IMG/VR virus record: IMGVR_UViG_3300014913_000023
Span: 1-45,393 of that record
Length of the DNA: 45,393 nt
Source of the DNA: a virus
Direction: 5' to 3' (one strand)
A program made the position numbers and the translations under genes. Below the pieces are notes generated by a model that did no database searches, was not told the origin of the DNA, and saw only the letters and a list, made by a program, of their open reading frames with translations. Of the stretch, positions 16,029 through 40,118 are shown piece after piece. Positions within the stretch are counted from its first letter, which is position 1; each line of letters opens with the position of its first letter.

Positions 16029-18365
16029 ATGCAAGATATATATATATATGAAAGTAAAGATGGCGGTGAATTTTGCTTATTAAATCGAGATTTACGTACA
16101 GTCGAAGGACTTGCTAATCAAGTATATTTAGCATTATTTGCCGGTAATTTATCAAAAGATTGGTGGGGTAATGAGATAATTGAATTAGAAGAGGAAAAAT
16201 TTAATGGTACTTTTGAACAAAAATTAAAAGAAAACAATTTAACATTACAAGGAATTAGAGATTTAGAAAATAGTGCTGAGCACGATTTAAAATATTTAAA
16301 AAAATATGCAATTGTAAAAGTAGAGATTACTTTACAAAATTATAATAGAATACGTATAAATGTAAAAATCGGACAAGAAAATGTTAATTTTCTTTGGTTT
16401 GGCACGCAGCACGACTTAGAGTCAGCAATTATAGGGCGTTGTGATTCAGTTATGCCGCCTCCGCAGATTGATATTACAACAAATTTTTTACAAATTTATA
16501 AAGCATGTAATAATGTTATAATTAATTGGGATACAAAAGGTTATGTGCCTTTTGTAAAAATTGAAATATATAGAAAAATAACAGATAGTTGGGATGTAAT
16601 AGAAAATAGATTAACGAATGCGGGTACTTATAATTATATTTTTCAAACAGTATCTGAAAATGCAAAAATTAGAGTTTCAGATACTTATAATTCAATTATT
16701 TATGATGAATCGACAGAATTTAATATTTTAGGTATAGATATTGAATTTGAAACACAAAGAAATGCGGGACAATCAGTAGATGTTATTGCTGTAAATGGGG
16801 GTGTTTGTGCGATTTGCTGGGGTGATGGGACAAAAGACGATTACGTTGCAGGCATATCAGATTCACATACTTATATTTCAACTGACGATTATAGTGTAAA
16901 AATATTAACAGAAATATATATATTATCACAATTATATTTACATTCAAATAATATAACAGAAATTATTTTTAATAAAATATATGAACTTGGGAAATTATAT
17001 TTACATTCTAATAATTTGACGGGTATACTTGATTTAAGTAATGTAAAATTAACTACAGAGTTGGTATGTTATTTGAATCCAAATTTGACAGGAATCACGC
17101 ACAGCACCGTTGCTGGGCAAGAAGTAAGGTCATATCAAGCATATAGCTGTAATTTGACAGGAACACTTGATTTAAGTAATATAAAATTGACATACAAATT
17201 ATATGTTTATAATAATCAAAACTTGACAGGAATCACACACAGCACGATTGCAGGGCAAGAAGTAAGTAATTATTATGTATATGATTGTGATTTGACAGGA
17301 ACACTTGATTTAAGTAACATAAAATTGACAAATATTTTTATTAGTTATAATAATCCAAATTTGATAGGAATCACACACAGCACGATTTCGGGACAAATTA
17401 TTTCTGAGTATTATGTATATGATTGTGATTTGACAGGTACACATGATTTAAGTAATATAAAATTGACAAACAAATTTGAAGCTTTTAGTAATCCAAATTT
17501 GACAGGAATCACACACAGTACGATTTCGGGGCAAGAAATTAGTGTATACAAAGCATATAGTTGCGATTTGACAGGAACACTTGATTTAAGTAATGTAAAA
17601 TTAACAGCTAAATTATATTTGTGGATAAATCCAAATTTGACAGGAATCACGCACAGCACCGTTGCTGGGCAAGAAGTTGATAGTTATAGAGCAAATAATT
17701 GCGATTTGACAGGAACACTTGATTTAAGTAACATAAAATTGACAAATATTTTTTATTTGTGGACAAATCCAAATTTGACAGGAATCACGCACAGCACCGT
17801 TGCTGGGCAAGAAGTAAGTGGTTATAATGTAAATAGTTGCAATTTGACAGGCACATTAGATTTAAGTAACATAAAATTGACAAACGGTATAGCATGTTAT
17901 TTGAATCCAAATTTGACACAAATCACACACAGTACGATTTCGGGGCAAGAAGTAAGGTCATATCAAGCATATAGCTGTAATTTGACAGGAACACTTGATT
18001 TAAGTAATATAAAATTGACATACAAATTTGAAGCTTTTAGTAATCCAAATTTGACAGGAATCACACACAGTACGATTTCGGGGCAAGAAATTAGTGTATA
18101 TAATGTACATAATTGTAATTTAAACGTATTAGAATTTGAAAAATTAACATTACAAAATAATTGTATTATAAATTTTTCTGATAATAATATGACAACCGCA
18201 GAAATCAATGAAAATTTAACAAAAATAGATTCTAACGGAGCGATAAACGGAACTTTAACGGCAAACGGTACGAATGCCGCACCAGACACCACAAGCGGAG
18301 GTTTTAACGGCACAGCAGCGGTTACGAGTTTGCAAAGTAAAGGATGGACAGTAGTAACTAATTAA
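16029..18365 (+). CDS. Baseplate gp46-like protein fused to repeat adhesin
   Basis: A 778-residue fusion. Residues 1-140 look like the Mu gp46 baseplate protein: DIYIYESKDGGEFCLLNRDL near the start, LFAGN.. .DWWGNE and an EITLQNYNRIRINVKIGQE ending. Then comes an Ig/FN3-like part (150-235), a PKD-like domain (about 237-297, with CWGDGTKDD and SHTY), and seven complete copies plus a partial copy of a 46-residue repeat (352-701) built from two half-units, NLTGITHSTVAGQEV... and NLTGTLDLSNIKLT..., resembling leucine-rich repeats. The C-terminal NGTAAVTSLQSKGWTVVTN is a typical end for Bacteroidota surface proteins. It probably anchors in the baseplate and binds the host surface. The fusion replaces a separate fibre for gp46. 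Confidence 0.75.
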   Translation: MQDIYIYESKDGGEFCLLNRDLRTVEGLANQVYLALFAGNLSKDWWGNEIIELEEEKFNGTFEQKLKENNLTLQGIRDLENSAEHDLKYLKKYAIVKVEITLQNYNRIRINVKIGQENVNFLWFGTQHDLESAIIGRCDSVMPPPQIDITTNFLQIYKACNNVIINWDTKGYVPFVKIEIYRKITDSWDVIENRLTNAGTYNYIFQTVSENAKIRVSDTYNSIIYDESTEFNILGIDIEFETQRNAGQSVDVIAVNGGVCAICWGDGTKDDYVAGISDSHTYISTDDYSVKILTEIYILSQLYLHSNNITEIIFNKIYELGKLYLHSNNLTGILDLSNVKLTTELVCYLNPNLTGITHSTVAGQEVRSYQAYSCNLTGTLDLSNIKLTYKLYVYNNQNLTGITHSTIAGQEVSNYYVYDCDLTGTLDLSNIKLTNIFISYNNPNLIGITHSTISGQIISEYYVYDCDLTGTHDLSNIKLTNKFEAFSNPNLTGITHSTISGQEISVYKAYSCDLTGTLDLSNVKLTAKLYLWINPNLTGITHSTVAGQEVDSYRANNCDLTGTLDLSNIKLTNIFYLWTNPNLTGITHSTVAGQEVSGYNVNSCNLTGTLDLSNIKLTNGIACYLNPNLTQITHSTISGQEVRSYQAYSCNLTGTLDLSNIKLTYKFEAFSNPNLTGITHSTISGQEISVYNVHNCNLNVLEFEKLTLQNNCIINFSDNNMTTAEINENLTKIDSNGAINGTLTANGTNAAPDTTSGGFNGTAAVTSLQSKGWTVVTN
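17082..18120 (+). repeat. 138-bp coding tandem repeats, 7 full copies plus partial
   Basis: Units start at 17082, 17220, 17358, 17496, 17634, 17772, 17910 and 18048 with exact 138-bp spacing. Two patches of about six codons vary in each unit while the framework stays nearly constant. An 86-bp block (17115-17200) recurs identically at 17943-18028, and a 79-bp block (17470-17548) recurs at 18022-18100, so the last units are chimeras of earlier ones. Confidence 0.95.
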
Positions 18366-30424: not shown

Positions 30425-32011
30425 TTAAAATCTCTCACAAAATTTTACTGCTGATATTATAGTAGAATTTTGCCAACCGTATTTTTTAGCAAAATTTTCT
30501 ATTGCTTTTTTTTTGCCTCTATACCACAACTGTCGCCACAACCAAGCTATTTTATGACCTTTTAATTTCCAATAATCGTGCAATTCGTCAAAATTCATAT
30601 CAGAAACCCTTTTATGATTTATAATTTCGCCATCTTTATATAGACTACTATATAATTTTATGACTTTAGCCGTTTTCTTTTCAGGATATTTAAAACCGCA
30701 AAAAGGACATATTTTATATGATGCTAATATGAGTCTCCGACAACCGCCTTTTTCGATAGGTTTTCCAACGCTGTCAAAACCGCATTCTTTCAATGGTGGT
30801 AAGCCTTTGCCGTCTTTTGATTCATGCCACAATGACCAGTTTCGGTCTTCACTATAATAGCCTAACCGCTCACAATTACCACCGAAATCAAATATATTAA
30901 AATGTGTTTTTTTGTCAAAAATTCGACTGCCTCTACCTATCATTTGTAATAATAAAGTAACAGATATTGTCGCACGATTTAATATTATAGTTTCGATTGA
31001 TGGACAATCATACCCAGTTGTCGCAATCCCGGCATTTATAAGGATTTGAAACTTATTATTTTGAAAATCATTAAATATATCTGTTCTTTTTCCGCTGTAA
31101 AGTTCATAATACTTTTTGTAAAGCTCATAAACTCTCATTCTTTCGTTGTACCTTGCTGCTTGCCCTTTATTTTCAGGGTCTTTCGGGTATTTTGGCTTAT
31201 TCATCGAACTAACAACAAAATTAGCTGTAAATCCTGCATCTCTGAGCAGTATAGTACTTTTAATGCAATGTTCTATATTTACACAAAAAATTAATGTTTT
31301 GCTTTTTGGTGCTATTTTTTTATAATTTTCTACTAATCCTGAATACAGTTTAGGACTGTCGAATTTTTCAAACATTTCTTTTGGCTTATAATCGCCTTGT
31401 AGCCTATCTATTTTGACATTACTCATGTCTGGACTTGATATTCCATAATAGTCATCATTTACCAAAAATCCTTTTTCTATTAATTTTTTAACAGAAATTG
31501 TAGATATTATTTTGTCGTAATCTAATGCTAATTGTCTCATTTTTCCTGACCTGTGCGGCGTTGCCGTAAATCCAATTACATATTTATCGTTAAATATCTG
31601 ACTTTCAAATAAATAGTTAAATTCTTGTTTATGACATTCATCAATTATCAGTAAATCAATTCCTGATAAAAATTTAATCCAATATTCCAAATCTATTCTA
31701 CGTCTAAGTGTCTGAGACATAGCAATATATACGTTAAAGTCATTTGATACGTATTTTTGTCCAGCTTGAATGAAAAAAGCATTTAATCCGGTCCGGTTAA
31801 TTGCACCGCCTGTCTGCATTAATAATTCATCTCTATCTGTCATTATTAATACTTTTTTATGCTTTTCTGCGGTTTTTTTTGCCAATACAGAGAATATTAT
31901 TGTCTTGCCCGATCCTGTCGGAGCTTGTAATATACAATGATTACCGCCTTTTCCAAAGAAAGTTCGTATGTCCGAAATTGCTTTAGTTTGATATTCTCTT
32001 AATCTTAACAT
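30425..32011 (-). CDS. Superfamily 2 DNA/RNA helicase (SSL2/UvsW-like)
   Basis: A 528-residue helicase with all SF2 motifs: Q-motif REYQTKA (5-11), Walker A APTGSGKT (30-37), DECH box IDECHKQ (D124-H127), motif III GFTATPHRSG, the second RecA domain with TLIFCVNIEHCIKS and motif VI LLQMIGRGSRIFD. A C-terminal zinc finger is likely (GGCRRLILASYKICPFCGFK). Such helicases in phages act in recombination-dependent replication and fork repair (compare T4 UvsW). It overlaps the upstream gene stop by one base. It is not a DinG family protein: there is no Fe-S cysteine cluster between motifs I and II. Confidence 0.88.
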   Translation of the reverse strand: MLRLREYQTKAISDIRTFFGKGGNHCILQAPTGSGKTIIFSVLAKKTAEKHKKVLIMTDRDELLMQTGGAINRTGLNAFFIQAGQKYVSNDFNVYIAMSQTLRRRIDLEYWIKFLSGIDLLIIDECHKQEFNYLFESQIFNDKYVIGFTATPHRSGKMRQLALDYDKIISTISVKKLIEKGFLVNDDYYGISSPDMSNVKIDRLQGDYKPKEMFEKFDSPKLYSGLVENYKKIAPKSKTLIFCVNIEHCIKSTILLRDAGFTANFVVSSMNKPKYPKDPENKGQAARYNERMRVYELYKKYYELYSGKRTDIFNDFQNNKFQILINAGIATTGYDCPSIETIILNRATISVTLLLQMIGRGSRIFDKKTHFNIFDFGGNCERLGYYSEDRNWSLWHESKDGKGLPPLKECGFDSVGKPIEKGGCRRLILASYKICPFCGFKYPEKKTAKVIKLYSSLYKDGEIINHKRVSDMNFDELHDYWKLKGHKIAWLWRQLWYRGKKKAIENFAKKYGWQNSTIISAVKFCERF

Positions 32012-32784: not shown

Positions 32785-32862
32785 GTATAACATGGCATTG
32801 GTAAACATAAAATTTTTAAGAAAAATAAAAATTTGACTGTTTCCAATATTTATTCGTTATAT
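32785..32862 (-). other. attC-like recombination site after the csf3-like gene
   Basis: On the minus strand, ATATAAC (R''-like, 32862-32856, containing the csf3-like TAA) is followed by ATTGGAAACA (32847-32838), an inner AAATTTTT/AAAAATTT stem (32834-32810), TGTTTACCAAT (32807-32797) and GTTATAC (R'-like, 32791-32785). The outer and middle arms are complementary with unpaired bases on one side, as in integron attC hairpins. No integrase is present. It could alternatively be a structured terminator. Confidence 0.45.
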
Positions 32863-33516
32863 GTCATCTAAAATACACTCTTCTAAATTATTCACATCCC
32901 AATAAGGTGGTTTCCACGCACAGAAATTAAATATGACTTTTTGTGAATTTAAAAGCATTTCTGGGGTTGCGTATTTTTTAGGAATCGGTCGAAAAATTGA
33001 GTTAAAATTAAAATCACTTTCTTTTATTTCAAAATCTTTGATTATACCATTCCCGTAATTTACTTTTTTCCCAATTCCTGCAAGATGCTCTGAAATTAGA
33101 TATTTTACTTTAGCTATATTCTCCGACTGTACAAAAAACCAAACTCTTGTGATTGCAGACAAAGGATATGGCATATCGTAACTTTTAAATTCTGCTTTTG
33201 TTATCTGAACTTTTCTCAACCTTTTACCAAAATCAGCTTTAAAATCATTTCTATTATCCCAACGTTTTCGCCATCGCTCTGTAAATTCTTCTGATTCTTT
33301 AAAAAACATACTACTTGCCATAAAATAGCCATTTTTGTGAATGTTTAAAGGCATTCCAGAAAAATCTATCTGTTCTTTTTTGTCATAACTCAGTTTTTGC
33401 GAAAATTTATCTTGCAATAATTCTTTTGCGTAACAAAAAGCAAGCAATCCGTCAAAAGTCGGACGTTCTAAAAAACTGATAGGTGTTTGCAAATTAAATG
33501 TTATTTTATAATTCAT
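32857..33516 (-). CDS. Csf3-like (Cas5-type) RAMP protein
   Basis: A 219-residue protein similar in layout to Csf3, the Cas5-like subunit that caps the 5' end of the guide in type IV complexes. It opens with a RAMP strand (NYKITFNLQTPISF) and the PTFDGLLAFCYAKELL motif (19-34), close to the 'LDGLLA' of Csf3. The glycine-rich loop AGIGKKVNYGNGI (146-158) has the Csf3-type 'IGKK-x-x-x-G-x-G' pattern. I chose ATG 33516 over 33525 because it overlaps the stop of the preceding small ORF (ATGA). The TAA lies in an attC-like site. Type IV origin is seen; activity is not known. Confidence 0.72.
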   Translation of the reverse strand: MNYKITFNLQTPISFLERPTFDGLLAFCYAKELLQDKFSQKLSYDKKEQIDFSGMPLNIHKNGYFMASSMFFKESEEFTERWRKRWDNRNDFKADFGKRLRKVQITKAEFKSYDMPYPLSAITRVWFFVQSENIAKVKYLISEHLAGIGKKVNYGNGIIKDFEIKESDFNFNSIFRPIPKKYATPEMLLNSQKVIFNFCAWKPPYWDVNNLEECILDDI

Positions 33517-33599
33517 TTTGTGCATATTTTGAAATCAGAATTTAATTGACTTAAAGCGTTATTAAAATCTAAAATTCTTTGTTTATTCTTAGTTTTCAT
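33513..33599 (-). CDS. 28-residue ORF between the TGT-like and csf3-like genes
   Basis: MKTKNKQRILDFNNALSQLN followed by SDFKICTK. Its ATG overlaps the stop region of the TGT-like gene (ATGAAAACTAA) and its TGA overlaps the csf3-like start (ATGA), so it would chain translation through the 63-bp gap. Basic and helical. It may be a real micropeptide or only a coupling ORF. Confidence 0.4.
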   Translation of the reverse strand: MKTKNKQRILDFNNALSQLNSDFKICTK

Positions 33600-34296
33600 G
33601 TGATGTCATTATTTTATTTGCGATAAAAGCATTTTTTTGAGCCTTTAAAACTTTAGTTCCTGACGCACGCATCCAGTTGCCATCTACTGAATCAACAGCA
33701 TTGTAATAAGCAATAGTATCTATACTATTAACGTTAGTTTGCGACCATGCTTTTACATCTTGTAAATTCCAACCTGCCCCTAAGTTATGTATCCAATCAA
33801 CTGCGTATAAGTCATGTATCCTTTTAAAAAGATTTTTCGGATATTCAATTTGTCGGCAAAAAGGATTTGAAAAAAATAAAAAGTCAATGTTTCCTTGAAA
33901 AAAATCACTGTAATAATCTAATTGATATTTTATAATATTCCAATCAAAATTTTTAGCCTTTGACATTTGAATAACAGGCTTAACTTCGTGATAATCATTA
34001 CTATGCCATTTTTCAAATTTTTCAATTGTTTCTTTAAAATTCAAAAAAGTGTCCGGTGCAACGCAATAAATATTTTTTCCTGAAAATTTATGGTAATGTA
34101 TATTCAGATTTTCTAAATATTCATCATTCATTTTACGATTAGACAATGAAAGCCCGTAAGCTCCACTATCTAATATTTGAAATTCTGCATTTCGTAACGA
34201 TTCCGGTATAATAGGAAATGCGTAAAGTCTATTATATTCAAGTAGTTTGCCTCGCAACCAGTTCGGAACAGGACAAACAAATCTATTTTTATACAT
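33589..34296 (-). CDS. TIM-barrel protein resembling TGT/DpdA enzymes
   Basis: A 235-residue protein with strand-turn motifs like those of tRNA-guanine transglycosylase-type TIM barrels: ILDSGAYGLS (41-50; compare DSGGF with the catalytic Asp in TGT), CVAPDTFLNFKETIEKFEKW (78-97), EVKPVIQMS (104-112), DFLFFSNPF, DWIHNLGAGW (167-176) and VNSIDTIAYY (189-198). In TGT and DpdA these barrels exchange a base for a 7-deazaguanine in tRNA or DNA. The TGT zinc site (C-x-C-x2-C) is absent, more like the DpdA side. It starts inside the end of the csf2-like gene (8-bp overlap), so it is co-translated with the Csf-like subunits. No preQ0 synthesis gene is visible. Substrate unknown. Confidence 0.5.
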   Translation of the reverse strand: MYKNRFVCPVPNWLRGKLLEYNRLYAFPIIPESLRNAEFQILDSGAYGLSLSNRKMNDEYLENLNIHYHKFSGKNIYCVAPDTFLNFKETIEKFEKWHSNDYHEVKPVIQMSKAKNFDWNIIKYQLDYYSDFFQGNIDFLFFSNPFCRQIEYPKNLFKRIHDLYAVDWIHNLGAGWNLQDVKAWSQTNVNSIDTIAYYNAVDSVDGNWMRASGTKVLKAQKNAFIANKIMTSHEN

Positions 34297-35551
34297 TAAA
34301 ATATTTTTTTATTTTATCTTTATTCTCAGTCAAATAATCAATGTATAATTTATCTGCATTTTTAGGTATATCAAAATCAAGTTCAATCATTCCCATATCT
34401 CTTGCAGAATTACCTCCGATGAATGGCTCTTTTTTCCACAAAATCAGCATTCTATAAAAACAAGAAACAATTAAATCATAATCTTTTCGTTGTTTCGATG
34501 TTCGCAAAATGAACATGCTATCGAATTTTGACCCTTTACAAAATGTTTCCGTTTCAAATATCATTTGATCAGCAGCTCGCTCTTTTTTGCTTTCTTTTTT
34601 TACTATTTCAATATTTTTTTCTATCTTAGACGTGTCGTGCCTAGTCATAAAAATATTACTTAAAAATTCCCAATAACTCAAATTCCCGGAATTATTTTCA
34701 ATACATCTTAATCTTGCACCTACATTGCTTAAATCAGAATGAATTGTCATGTTTCCGATTGCACTGCCAAAAAGTGAAATTGCAGGACAATTTGATATAT
34801 ATTCATCTCTTTTTGCAATATCCTCAAATTCAGTGCTATCACTAATATTGCCTCCTGTGTGTAATTGATGATATAGACTTTTTTCAATACTCTCAATTCC
34901 TACAATCTGCTCAAAATCAGACATTACCAACCTACGTAAATATCCTCTAATTGAATTTCCGTTAAAATAAGGTACAGTTTCAAATGATTTTTTAAACTCA
35001 ATATCTTCAATTTTTACACTTTCGGGTTCGTATAATTCAGAAAATAAAGTAGGTTCATTTTCAAATCCAGCATTTGCAACTTTATTTTTATCTTTAAAAA
35101 AAGCAACATATTCACGCAATAAAATCATTAAATAAGCATGTTCATTGCGAATTGTTATGATTAACTCATTATCATTGAATTTATTTAATGAATGCAATAT
35201 CATTTTAGAATTACCTCCACTCATACTTTTTATATCAAGACTTTCGGTAAGCTTCGTTAAAAATTCCTGTTTTGTTTTTACATATGTTGCATTTTTTACT
35301 TTATTTGCATACGCATCGTAAAATCCATAATTATCTGATTTTAATTTTAAATCAATTTCCGAATAAACAGAATAGATAATATCCATAACTGCTTGAGTTC
35401 TTTCATTTTTAGATTTAAAACTACTTTTAATAATTTCGGGTTTTGGCAATAAAACTTTTTCTCTTCTTAAAGTCCTGACTGTTCCTTTATTTTCGTTACT
35501 GCCTGTAAATAAAGGAGTAACGGCTTTAAATGTGTAATTTACTTTCAACAT
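34289..35551 (-). CDS. Csf2-like (Cas7-type backbone) RAMP protein
   Basis: A 420-residue protein resembling Csf2, the Cas7-like backbone that multimerises along the guide RNA in type IV complexes. Recognisable: the first RAMP strand FKAVTPLFTGSNENKGTVRT (8-27), VPYFNGNSIRGYLRRLVMSD (193-212), YHQLHTGGNISD (227-238), CPAISLFGSAIGN (255-267, the 'P-x-x-S-L-F-G-x-A' block) and PFIGGNSARDMG (376-387). It is longer than usual Csf2 (about 330-360) because of extra sequence at about 40-130. It starts 2 bp after the csf1-like stop and overlaps the TGT-like gene. Confidence 0.72.
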   Translation of the reverse strand: MLKVNYTFKAVTPLFTGSNENKGTVRTLRREKVLLPKPEIIKSSFKSKNERTQAVMDIIYSVYSEIDLKLKSDNYGFYDAYANKVKNATYVKTKQEFLTKLTESLDIKSMSGGNSKMILHSLNKFNDNELIITIRNEHAYLMILLREYVAFFKDKNKVANAGFENEPTLFSELYEPESVKIEDIEFKKSFETVPYFNGNSIRGYLRRLVMSDFEQIVGIESIEKSLYHQLHTGGNISDSTEFEDIAKRDEYISNCPAISLFGSAIGNMTIHSDLSNVGARLRCIENNSGNLSYWEFLSNIFMTRHDTSKIEKNIEIVKKESKKERAADQMIFETETFCKGSKFDSMFILRTSKQRKDYDLIVSCFYRMLILWKKEPFIGGNSARDMGMIELDFDIPKNADKLYIDYLTENKDKIKKYFNV

Positions 35552-35553
35552 AA

Positions 35554-36240
35554 TTAATTTTTTTTATTTAAAATATGAATCAATAATTTAAAATATAATG
35601 TATTTCTATAATTTTCTAAGAATCTTGTCTCTTCAAAATATTTAGCAACTCCGTAATTTTTTATCTTTTTAAAATTTGGAATTGTTGTTCCTAAAATGTC
35701 CGATTTAGTAAAATAAGTAGGTTCTTGCTTGCTTTTATTTCCTTCAACAATTTTATACCAATTTTGAATTATTAGTAAAATATGCTTTGTTTTTTTTACG
35801 TCAAAAACACAATTCCCAATATCCGTCGTAATTGTGAAAATCTGATTATTAATCTGCATTTTACTTTTGTAAGCAATATGTTTTTTGTTACTAAAAGTTA
35901 TGCAGATTTGAAATTTACTATCTTTTAAATTCAACAACAAATCTAATATTTCATCTCTCATTAACGTTTTAAATCCATCCTTGTTTGCAAAAAATGAGTA
36001 ATTTCGCAAAGAAGTCATGTTGCCTTTTGTATTTTTTATAACGTTGCTCAATAACAATGCAATATCTACACTCACATAATCAGATTTATATTTTATTAAT
36101 TCAAAATCTGTAAAAGTTTTTGAAATTAATTTTGATTTTAAAACTCCTTCTGTTATTTTTTTTCCTGTAAATGCACATATAGAATTGCATTTTACAGGCG
36201 GAGATTTTAAATATTCTCTGTTTAAATATTTTTCTATCAT
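35554..36240 (-). CDS. Csf1-like (type IV Cas8-type) protein
   Basis: A 228-residue protein resembling Csf1, the small Cas8-like subunit of type IV complexes. The segment CNSICAFTGKKITEGVLKSK followed by LISKTFTDFELI (18-49) parallels the Csf1 zinc-finger opening 'C-A-x-C-G-x-x-I-x-x-G-V...FTD'; C18 and C22 are present but the second Cys of the knuckle is Thr and no downstream C-x2-C is seen, so the finger is degenerate. The later NKKHIAYKSKMQINNQIFTI (118-137) corresponds to the 'KKH' region of Csf1. I chose ATG 36240 because the longer frame overlaps the upstream gene. First gene of the Csf-like cluster. Confidence 0.6.
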   Translation of the reverse strand: MIEKYLNREYLKSPPVKCNSICAFTGKKITEGVLKSKLISKTFTDFELIKYKSDYVSVDIALLLSNVIKNTKGNMTSLRNYSFFANKDGFKTLMRDEILDLLLNLKDSKFQICITFSNKKHIAYKSKMQINNQIFTITTDIGNCVFDVKKTKHILLIIQNWYKIVEGNKSKQEPTYFTKSDILGTTIPNFKKIKNYGVAKYFEETRFLENYRNTLYFKLLIHILNKKN

Positions 36241-36304: not shown

Positions 36305-36760
36305 TTATAATAAATTAAATTTAACATTCTCAAACTTCAAACAGGCACGTGCAAAATCTTTTCTCAATTCAGGTACGTTTGCAACTTGCTGTAAACTATG
36401 GTTTACATTATATCTCTTTTGCCCTGTTATCGAAAATAAAACGTCATAAAATTTAGATTTATGATTATAAGAAGTTACTATATATTTATCACACATTGCA
36501 TAAAAAATTTGACGTGCCGAAACAACTTCTCGAAGTCTATTTTTTTCTGTAATTCTACTTATTTTAATTTCAAAAAATTCTGATACAAAAAGTAAAATCT
36601 TTGTCATTTCATCGTGCATATCATGTGTGTTTACACAAAAAATACAATTACTTTTTGCTAATTCTCTAAGATCATCAAGTGTCGTAAATCCGTTTATTTT
36701 GCTTCCCGGATTTCTGTCGATTAAGCCCTGATAATATGCTTTTTTGTTTATTTTTGTCAT
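36305..36760 (-). CDS. DnaA domain IV-like protein
   Basis: A 151-residue protein. Residues 53-130 resemble DnaA domain IV, the double-stranded DnaA-box-binding HTH: KILLFVSEFFEIKISRITEK leads into NRLREVVSARQIFYAM (74-89; compare R-K-R-E-I-V-x-A-R-Q-I-A-M-Y), and NVNHSLQQV (118-126) corresponds to the 'HTTVLHA' helix. No ATPase domain is present. It may bind a phage origin or act as a replication/transcription regulator. An N-terminal stretch of about 50 residues (with CIFCVNTHDMHDEM) is unassigned. Upstream neighbour of the csf1-like gene. Confidence 0.55.
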   Translation of the reverse strand: MTKINKKAYYQGLIDRNPGSKINGFTTLDDLRELAKSNCIFCVNTHDMHDEMTKILLFVSEFFEIKISRITEKNRLREVVSARQIFYAMCDKYIVTSYNHKSKFYDVLFSITGQKRYNVNHSLQQVANVPELRKDFARACLKFENVKFNLL

Positions 36761-39052: not shown

Positions 39053-39979
39053 TTATTTTATATTTTGTAATATTATATCTCTTTTTTTAACTACAATTAA
39101 ATAATTATCAGCGATACCTTTTAATTTTAATTTCATATTTAAAGACAATCTTGAACGTGGATAAAAAGTTATCACTTTCCGTGAATGTTCTTCTACGACA
39201 AGTGTATATGTCCTTTTAATTCCATATCTATTCCGAATATTTGAATGAAAAATCTTATAACCGCTCCGGGTTTCGATTTTAATAATATTTCCTGAATTTA
39301 TTTTTTTCATAAGCCCGGAAATGTAAGAAATTTCAGACTTTAAAAATAAATGTGTACCGATATTTGGAAACTTATTCCTTGATATATAGGCTTTTGGAGA
39401 ATGCCTTTTAATGATATGCTTCATACCCCACTTATCATTTCCGTGCTTGACTTTAAAAAAATCTGTACCGATTTTTATATTAAAATTACTAAAATTTTTA
39501 TATGAATGTTTTGCTATTTTTTTGGCTGCACGGTAACCGGTATTTGTTGTCTTATATTTTTGCACAGATGGCATCTTGACAGCCGACAAAGGTGCAAATA
39601 ATATACAATTATATACTATTCCATTTAACGTCTTATCAGGATCTTTTAAAACATCTTTTAAGTGCATCTGATTTACCGTATCAGGCAAAAAATTTGAACC
39701 ATAAATCAATTTTAAATCCTGCAAATATTTTAATCTCTCAATTCTCTGATGAGAATCAGGATAACGTGATAATGATTCGGTTGCAAGCTTTATTTCAAAA
39801 TCTATATCATAAAAATTCTGAATTAAGCTGTACTTTTCTGCTACGAAAAGTGGGTCGTCTATAAAGTTGTTTGCTTCATTAACTATGTCTGCATGAGTAT
39901 AATATAATTCATCTGTCACACATGATGACAGATTTATTATTAATATTATTATTATTAAAAAAATTGCTGACTTTTTCAT
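39053..39979 (-). CDS. Lipoprotein with C-terminal BECR/EndoU-like domain
   Basis: A 308-residue protein. MKKSAIFLIIIILIINLSSC is a lipoprotein signal with lipobox Cys at 20, so it should be membrane-anchored. After a helical middle part, residues about 160-275 look like phage-associated Barnase-EndoU-ColicinE5-RelE-like (BECR) nuclease domains: KWGMKHIIKRHSP (H188, H193), GNIIKIETRSGYKIF, then RTYTLVVEEHSRKVITFYPR. I chose ATG 39979 because it gives the intact signal peptide and lies next to the stop of the 45-residue membrane gene. A surface-exposed toxin or a superinfection exclusion protein are possible roles. Confidence 0.55.
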   Translation of the reverse strand: MKKSAIFLIIIILIINLSSCVTDELYYTHADIVNEANNFIDDPLFVAEKYSLIQNFYDIDFEIKLATESLSRYPDSHQRIERLKYLQDLKLIYGSNFLPDTVNQMHLKDVLKDPDKTLNGIVYNCILFAPLSAVKMPSVQKYKTTNTGYRAAKKIAKHSYKNFSNFNIKIGTDFFKVKHGNDKWGMKHIIKRHSPKAYISRNKFPNIGTHLFLKSEISYISGLMKKINSGNIIKIETRSGYKIFHSNIRNRYGIKRTYTLVVEEHSRKVITFYPRSRLSLNMKLKLKGIADNYLIVVKKRDIILQNIK

Positions 39980-39980
39980 G

Positions 39981-40118
39981 TTATAAATTTTGATTACTAA
40001 TTCCATCACGCCAATTGTCAAACTGATTTTTCCATCCGTTGCGGCGTTTTATTTTAGTTATAATTATAGCAATCATAACTAAAATTAATAATCCTGTCAA
40101 GAATAATATTTCATTCAT
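39981..40118 (-). CDS. Small single-pass membrane protein (45 residues)
   Basis: MNEILFLTGLLILVMIAIII followed by TKIKRRNGWKNQFDNWRDGI and SNQNL. One N-terminal membrane helix (about 4-21) and a basic cytoplasmic tail. Its start overlaps the upstream stop (ATGA), and its stop is one base before the lipoprotein ATG, so the pair is coupled. Perhaps a partner or immunity-type protein of the lipoprotein. Confidence 0.55.
   Translation of the reverse strand: MNEILFLTGLLILVMIAIIITKIKRRNGWKNQFDNWRDGISNQNL

Follow-up and report, generated by a model that had tools for sequence, protein, structure and literature searches.

What would a type IV-B-like CRISPR (clustered regularly interspaced short palindromic repeats)-Cas complex do if its CysH-like partner were replaced by a putative base-exchange enzyme? 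The question is raised by a csf operon in IMG/VR virus record IMGVR_UViG_3300014913_000023, which was studied over its whole length of 45,393 bases and is referred to below as the window. Type IV-B operons (csf1-cas11-csf2-csf3-cysH) are exemplified by those of Mycobacterium sp. JS623, the Thermococcus nautili plasmid L002 and Fuxiviridae (PMC10848311), and what their CysH-like protein does has been described as the key to how type IV-B functions (PMC8175902, PMC7937560). On the minus strand of the window, csf1, csf2, the gene of a predicted triosephosphate isomerase (TIM)-barrel protein and csf3 follow one another, co-oriented and closely packed. The barrel protein, which takes the position held by CysH in related loci (the CysH slot), resembles DpdA and tRNA-guanine transglycosylase (TGT). 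Other loci are cited by L numbers.

35554..36240, minus strand: csf1, Cas8-like large subunit (PADLOC Csf1_0_IV, E = 2.4e-15; TIGR03114, E = 3e-5)
34289..35551, minus strand: csf2, Cas7 with inserted Cas11, 420 residues (PADLOC Csf2_0_IV, E = 3.3e-39)
35108..35392, minus strand: Cas11 domain within Csf2, residues 54-148 (PADLOC Cas11_1_IV, E = 3.2e-11)
34289..34296, minus strand: 8-nucleotide overlap of csf2 and the barrel gene (open reading frame (ORF) coordinates)
33589..34296, minus strand: predicted DpdA/TGT-like TIM-barrel protein, 235 residues, in the CysH slot (AlphaFold2 (AF2), hhalign, Foldseek)
32857..33525 (or 33516), minus strand: csf3, Cas5-like (PADLOC Csf3_0_IV, E = 1.1e-35; TIGR03116, E = 9e-14)

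The csf operon and its barrel protein

A first-pass annotation of the window had proposed Csf1-, Csf2- and Csf3-like proteins, and the PADLOC matches listed above bear this out. Sequence profiles, from which the Cas5 and Cas7 assignments derive, confirm the type IV CRISPR-Cas identity of csf2 (Cas7), csf3 (Cas5) and csf1. The NCBIfam type IV models, TIGR03116 among them, match below their curated cut-offs, as divergent members are expected to do. The start of csf1 was taken as the ATG at 36240; the mechanical ORF begins upstream, at a TTG at 36333. The degenerate Csf1 finger described in the annotation is present in the alignment, which retains the first CxxxC pair (CNSICAFTGK) and has lost the second Cys pair. 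Neither Cas1, Cas2, Cas6 and DinG nor Cas10 was matched among the window ORFs scanned (a DinG helicase or a Cas10-like protein with HD marks subtypes IV-A and IV-C). The window shares with type IV-B its Csf1, Csf2, Csf3 and Cas11 homologs, the absence of an array, a mobile element as carrier and a Csf2 that nests among CysH-bearing virus loci. Unlike type IV-B, it has a DpdA/TGT-like barrel in the slot, and its Cas11 is a domain inserted into Cas7 rather than the product of a separate gene; PF01507 (PAPS reductase/CysH) is absent from the whole record. Because it has no CysH-like gene, the locus is filed as a type IV, IV-B-like variant and not as canonical IV-B.

The 420-residue length of the Csf2 ORF reflects the insertion of Cas11 within Cas7, a feature that the annotation did not mention. 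Csf2_0_IV and Cas11_1_IV both match this one ORF, and when the window Csf2 is aligned with unfused Csf2 the insertion falls between a Cas7 segment ending LRREKV and one starting VPYFNGNSIRGYLRR (the GNSIRGYLRR segment). An equivalent insertion is found in L036 (E = 3.5e-17), L020 and L024, the inserted stretch is matched in BLASTP by the Cas11 proteins that L023 and L029 encode separately, and fused relatives are 33-53% identical to the window Csf2. Loci with the insertion form a single supported clade of 19 rows in the Csf2 tree (100/99). No description of a Cas7-Cas11 insertion in type IV was found among the papers searched. The Cas7-11 fusions of types III-E and III-I likewise unite a Cas7-type domain with a Cas11 domain in a single polypeptide (PMC12669027); unlike these, the window fusion is one Cas7 with Cas11 inside, within type IV and alongside separate Csf1 and Csf3, and it probably arose separately.

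The annotation had placed the barrel gene between csf2 and csf3 by gene overlap, and the 8 nucleotides shared with csf2 are consistent with one operon. The barrel protein has no significant match in Pfam, NCBIfam, PADLOC or PHROG, nor does the family alignment in Pfam. A chance ORF was rejected as an explanation, as was a CysH remnant, the protein having no PP-loop. An AF2 run with two sequences reached a predicted local distance difference test (pLDDT) score of only 47 and left the PDB search uninformative; repeated with 15 sequences, it gave an eight-stranded TIM barrel with a pLDDT of 90.7 and a predicted template modelling score of 0.89. Alignment of the barrel profile with eight phage DpdA proteins in hhalign yielded a probability of 95.7 and E = 9.3e-9 over 154 columns, with DSGA paired to DSGAF and SIDT to SVDS. 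The real alignment scored 65, as compared with at most 21 for 60 column shuffles, 18 for the reversed profile and less than 15 for csf and CysH alignments. In a Foldseek search of viral structures (BFVD), queuine tRNA-ribosyltransferases rank first (E = 6e-6, probability 1.00), and TIM barrels predominate both there and in a search of PDB. The family invariants are D43-S44-G45-A46, A80-P81-D82, H170-x-L-G and S191-x-D193, and the putative catalytic Asp motifs DSGx and SxDx are unchanged in 15/15 aligned members. Membership of the TGT/DpdA superfamily, as first proposed, is well supported as a fold class; the annotation would have abandoned it had the 235-residue protein fallen outside the TGT barrel family, and AF2, hhalign and BFVD Foldseek all point to a place within it. 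In its TIM barrel, its DSGA...SxDS motifs and its profile and viral-structure matches the protein is like phage DpdA (9g, phiSM) and TGT. Unlike phage DpdA, it lacks BLAST similarity, is not accompanied by preQ0 genes and is found only beside csf genes, and its activity is a prediction.

Distribution of the barrel gene and exchange of the slot enzyme

Relatives of the barrel protein were recovered with clade alignments and motif patterns, single-protein scans having been unsuccessful. A scan with the barrel signature IHxLGAGW, which takes no account of csf genes, picked out 23 stretches; six of them encode homologs, and csf2 and csf3 are present in all six contigs (6/6). The family alignment, used for a second scan, brought in nine more records, every one csf-linked (9/9). 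The total stands at 16 barrel records including the window; in the 15 further ones csf2 and csf3 lie beside the barrel gene, and two (L102 and L103) are near copies. The arrangement is present in the window's virus and at least 14 others. The annotation had suggested a search for its four-gene order in other phages: the barrel gene does recur with csf2 and csf3, and the order varies. The barrel lies between csf2 and csf3 in the window, L036, L068, L080 and L059 (the last with an extra ORF), after csf3 in L060, L070, L097, L098, L100 and L107, and upstream of csf2 in L101, L102, L105 and L106. No csf1 was seen in L080 because this record begins inside csf2. Association of the barrel gene with csf genes is well supported, on scans whose queries were csf-linked members, so that distant homologs elsewhere may be missed. 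By tblastn, isolated phages and plasmids have no significant homolog, and the weak partial matches in 3 of 395 Bacteroidota genomes (E = 0.005-0.009) were judged background.

The loci nearest by Csf2 (L024, L032 and L051) have the gene order of the window, csf1-csf2(fused)-X-csf3, with a CysH-like protein as X; the window Csf3 is 49-50% identical to those of L024 and L032. PF01507 is found in 0/16 barrel contigs versus 35/37 other type IV-B virus contigs (Fisher test, 1e-11, a value that overstates independence as the rows are related). Conversely, the barrel is absent from 37/37 of these other contigs in a search that recovered 15/15 positive controls. The two PF01507-free exceptions, L013 and L040, encode methyltransferase-like proteins, related to each other, in the interval from csf2 to csf3, and L107 carries a similar protein in addition to the barrel. 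Methyltransferase-like proteins in csf operons include those at L128:4167-4649, L040:9238-9738 and L107:4575-5384, two of them in the CysH slot.

Mapped on the Csf2 tree, the barrel label requires 10 changes, and well-supported branches force at least 7 of them. The long branches L097, L006, L049 and L050 are uncertain, while the nesting of the window among CysH-bearing loci of the same gene order is well supported (100/99); the slot enzymes have thus been exchanged repeatedly. The proposal that a base-exchange-type enzyme takes the place of the CysH-like protein in a type IV-B-like complex is supported by both the gene order of L024, L032 and L051 and the distribution of PF01507.

Several features adjoin these loci. 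An ORF of about 306-316 residues lies directly upstream of the barrel gene at L090:6329-7249, L105:7102-8028 and L106:944-1894; in one of these copies there is a weak match to Glyco_trans_1_2 (E = 0.0012), and the product could be a glycosyltransferase involved in hypermodification. Downstream of the csf/barrel operon, L106:5280-5456 matches the C4 antisense RNA and isrK families, which suggests a prophage immunity region. Pairs of DUF3440/PAPS-reductase and ParB-like genes occur near type IV-B loci in L003, L004, L005, L045 and L046 (haloarchaeal plasmids and viruses), and the phage DpdA genes L112, L113 and L114 likewise adjoin ParB-like genes.

Guide source and genomic setting

IV-B-like operons are usually said to be without Cas6. 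Cas6 is nevertheless encoded beside the barrel gene at L100:8639-9286, Cas6f/Csy4 at L105:8690-9172, and Cas6 in or beside a IV-B-like operon at L042:6683-7375, with no array found near any of the three. An 11-repeat CRISPR array (GTTTCAATCCACGC..., 34-nucleotide spacers) is present at L044:10416-11106; the repeat looks I-C-like. A csf locus with the fusion and with CysH lies about 1 kb away, and the contig also carries phage head genes. These Cas6 and Cas6f genes and this array make it more likely that at least some of the type IV-B-like radiation uses CRISPR-type guides. No barrel locus was found to have an array, the repeats of L102/L103, of L107 and of the window being coding or simple ones. 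As the annotation had noted, the window has neither an array nor, among its scanned ORFs, a Cas6, and its guide would therefore come from elsewhere.

Terminase, portal, tail-sheath, tape-measure and baseplate genes identify the window as a myovirus. Its nearest terminase relatives are those of the Cellulophaga phiSM and Flavobacterium FCL-2 phages, so its host is likely a member of the Bacteroidota. The csf operon sits within a replication and recombination module comprising Prim-Pol/VapE, a ResIII helicase, a Rad52-like annealing protein and YqaJ. The neighbouring helicase and other features of the window are as follows.

30425-32011: helicase neighbouring the csf operon; DinG identity rejected, as it matches ResIII/phrog_16 instead
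36305-36760: protein with a DnaA C-terminal-like helix-turn-helix, directly upstream of csf1 (PF08299, E = 8.5e-8)
39053-40021: 322-residue lipoprotein-like protein without a family, between an AAA ATPase and a row of uncharacterized small genes
17497-17783: 69-bp coding repeat, five copies, inside the baseplate-linked ORF 16029-18365

An Rfam search of the window gave no match.

Possible functions of the complex

On balance we lean towards a type IV-B-like variant whose Csf ribonucleoprotein (RNP) positions an interchangeable nucleobase-modifying enzyme, of DpdA/TGT type in the window. Csf1, the Cas7-Cas11 fusion and Csf3 would assemble on a short RNA as a virus-borne RNP. This would bring the barrel enzyme either to a nucleic acid that has paired with the RNA of the complex or to that RNA, where the enzyme would swap a guanine-type base for another; at other loci the same slot is taken by a CysH-like protein, a PP-loop ATPase, or by one resembling a methyltransferase. 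A Csf RNP as targeting partner of a slot enzyme that does nucleobase chemistry is the simplest account of three unrelated classes of nucleic-acid-chemistry enzymes sharing one slot, and the interchangeability of the slot enzyme suggests RNP-directed nucleobase modification as the general function of type IV-B. The annotation had suggested a complex that would target or protect DNA modification; the nucleic acid modified may equally be RNA. In the IV-B RNP the RNA is held ready to pair (PMC7937560), and for CasCysH, which keeps the PP-loop and lacks the catalytic Cys, a role in modifying nucleic acid bound by the RNP has been proposed (PMC8175902). DpdA normally works with the ParB-like partner DpdB, which is sometimes dispensable (PMC12839542). 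The bacterial Dpd system is thus similar in combining a TGT-type enzyme with a DNA-handling partner, but in the window this partner would be the Csf RNP, and no Dpd restriction genes were noted. A more far-reaching version, which we put forward tentatively, is that complexes of the type IV-B-like kind act as nucleobase modifiers guided by RNA: paired with a target, they would deliver an interchangeable transglycosylase, PP-loop ATPase or methyltransferase to exchange or chemically edit its bases.

Several observations weigh against enzyme positioning by the RNP. The window has no array and, among its scanned ORFs, no Cas6. QueC and QueD-type/PTPS genes are absent from all 16 barrel contigs, so an incoming base would be host-derived. 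The His of the invariant H170-x-L-G is set two columns off the DpdA His (9g H196) by hhalign. CysH-like and DpdA-like chemistries differ, and an equal position need not mean an equal role; both RNP association and catalysis by the barrel protein are presumed. A Foldseek search of PDB gave generic TIM barrels only among the 50 matches listed, none below E = 1e-3. This silence weighs little, since even a profile made of DpdA reaches the DpdA crystal sequence 7ui4 only at E = 0.16. The ambiguous PDB result, the length of 235 residues, shorter than most DpdA, and the lack of the Zn-Cys motif of bacterial TGT would also suit a structural or regulatory subunit, or an enzyme acting on a small molecule; with the putative catalytic Asp motifs invariant, and with the DpdA-specific profile and viral-structure matches, this seems quite improbable.

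TGT acts on tRNA, which counts in favour of another alternative, in which a Csf filament serves as an RNA sponge or decoy that captures guide RNAs of the host or fragments of tRNA. The barrel enzyme would modify the captured RNAs (or tRNA) to disable host RNA-guided or RNA-based defence, with no paired target. A recombinant IV-B RNP did bind heterogeneous RNA of about 55-60 nucleotides, a result that also tells against a positioned enzyme, and 97.8% of IV-B operons are without arrays (PMC7937560); the slot methyltransferases, moreover, match the RNA methyltransferase families RrnaAD, TRM5 and TRM (RrnaAD and TRM5 in the case of the L013 protein). However, Cas6 or Cas6f beside the barrel gene in L100 and L105 and the array in L044 suggest that some members have dedicated guides, and the closest relatives among the tested profiles, a set without tRNA TGT profiles, are DNA-acting phage DpdA proteins, so that we regard a sponge as unlikely. 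It is distinctly improbable that the enzyme is an independent DpdA, which would protect the genomic DNA of the phage from restriction by modifying it and have no more than an operon in common with the Csf complex. Phage DpdA is known to act in this way, and phages with a singleton DpdA and no preQ0 genes exist (PMC6884629), but all 16 barrel records are csf-linked and none has CysH, one slot has been swapped repeatedly, preQ0 genes were not found in barrel contigs, and the family stands apart from known DpdA by BLAST, with no significant matches in isolated phages.

Positioning of a nucleobase-modifying enzyme by the Csf RNP is the reading preferred here. No link between Csf2 and a TGT was found among the papers searched. 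The operons are small and testable, the fused Cas7-Cas11 subunit suits structural work, and the Cas6-bearing relatives could supply defined guides. RNA-guided base modification, if true, would to our knowledge be the first natural CRISPR system with a base-modifying effector in place of cleavage or blocking. Occupation of the CysH slot by a DpdA/TGT-like enzyme, with at least 7 changes in the tree, and by a methyltransferase-like protein in two viruses narrows the possible functions of type IV-B to a common nucleobase chemistry, and suggests that type IV-B-like complexes guide the chemical modification of DNA or RNA rather than its cutting.

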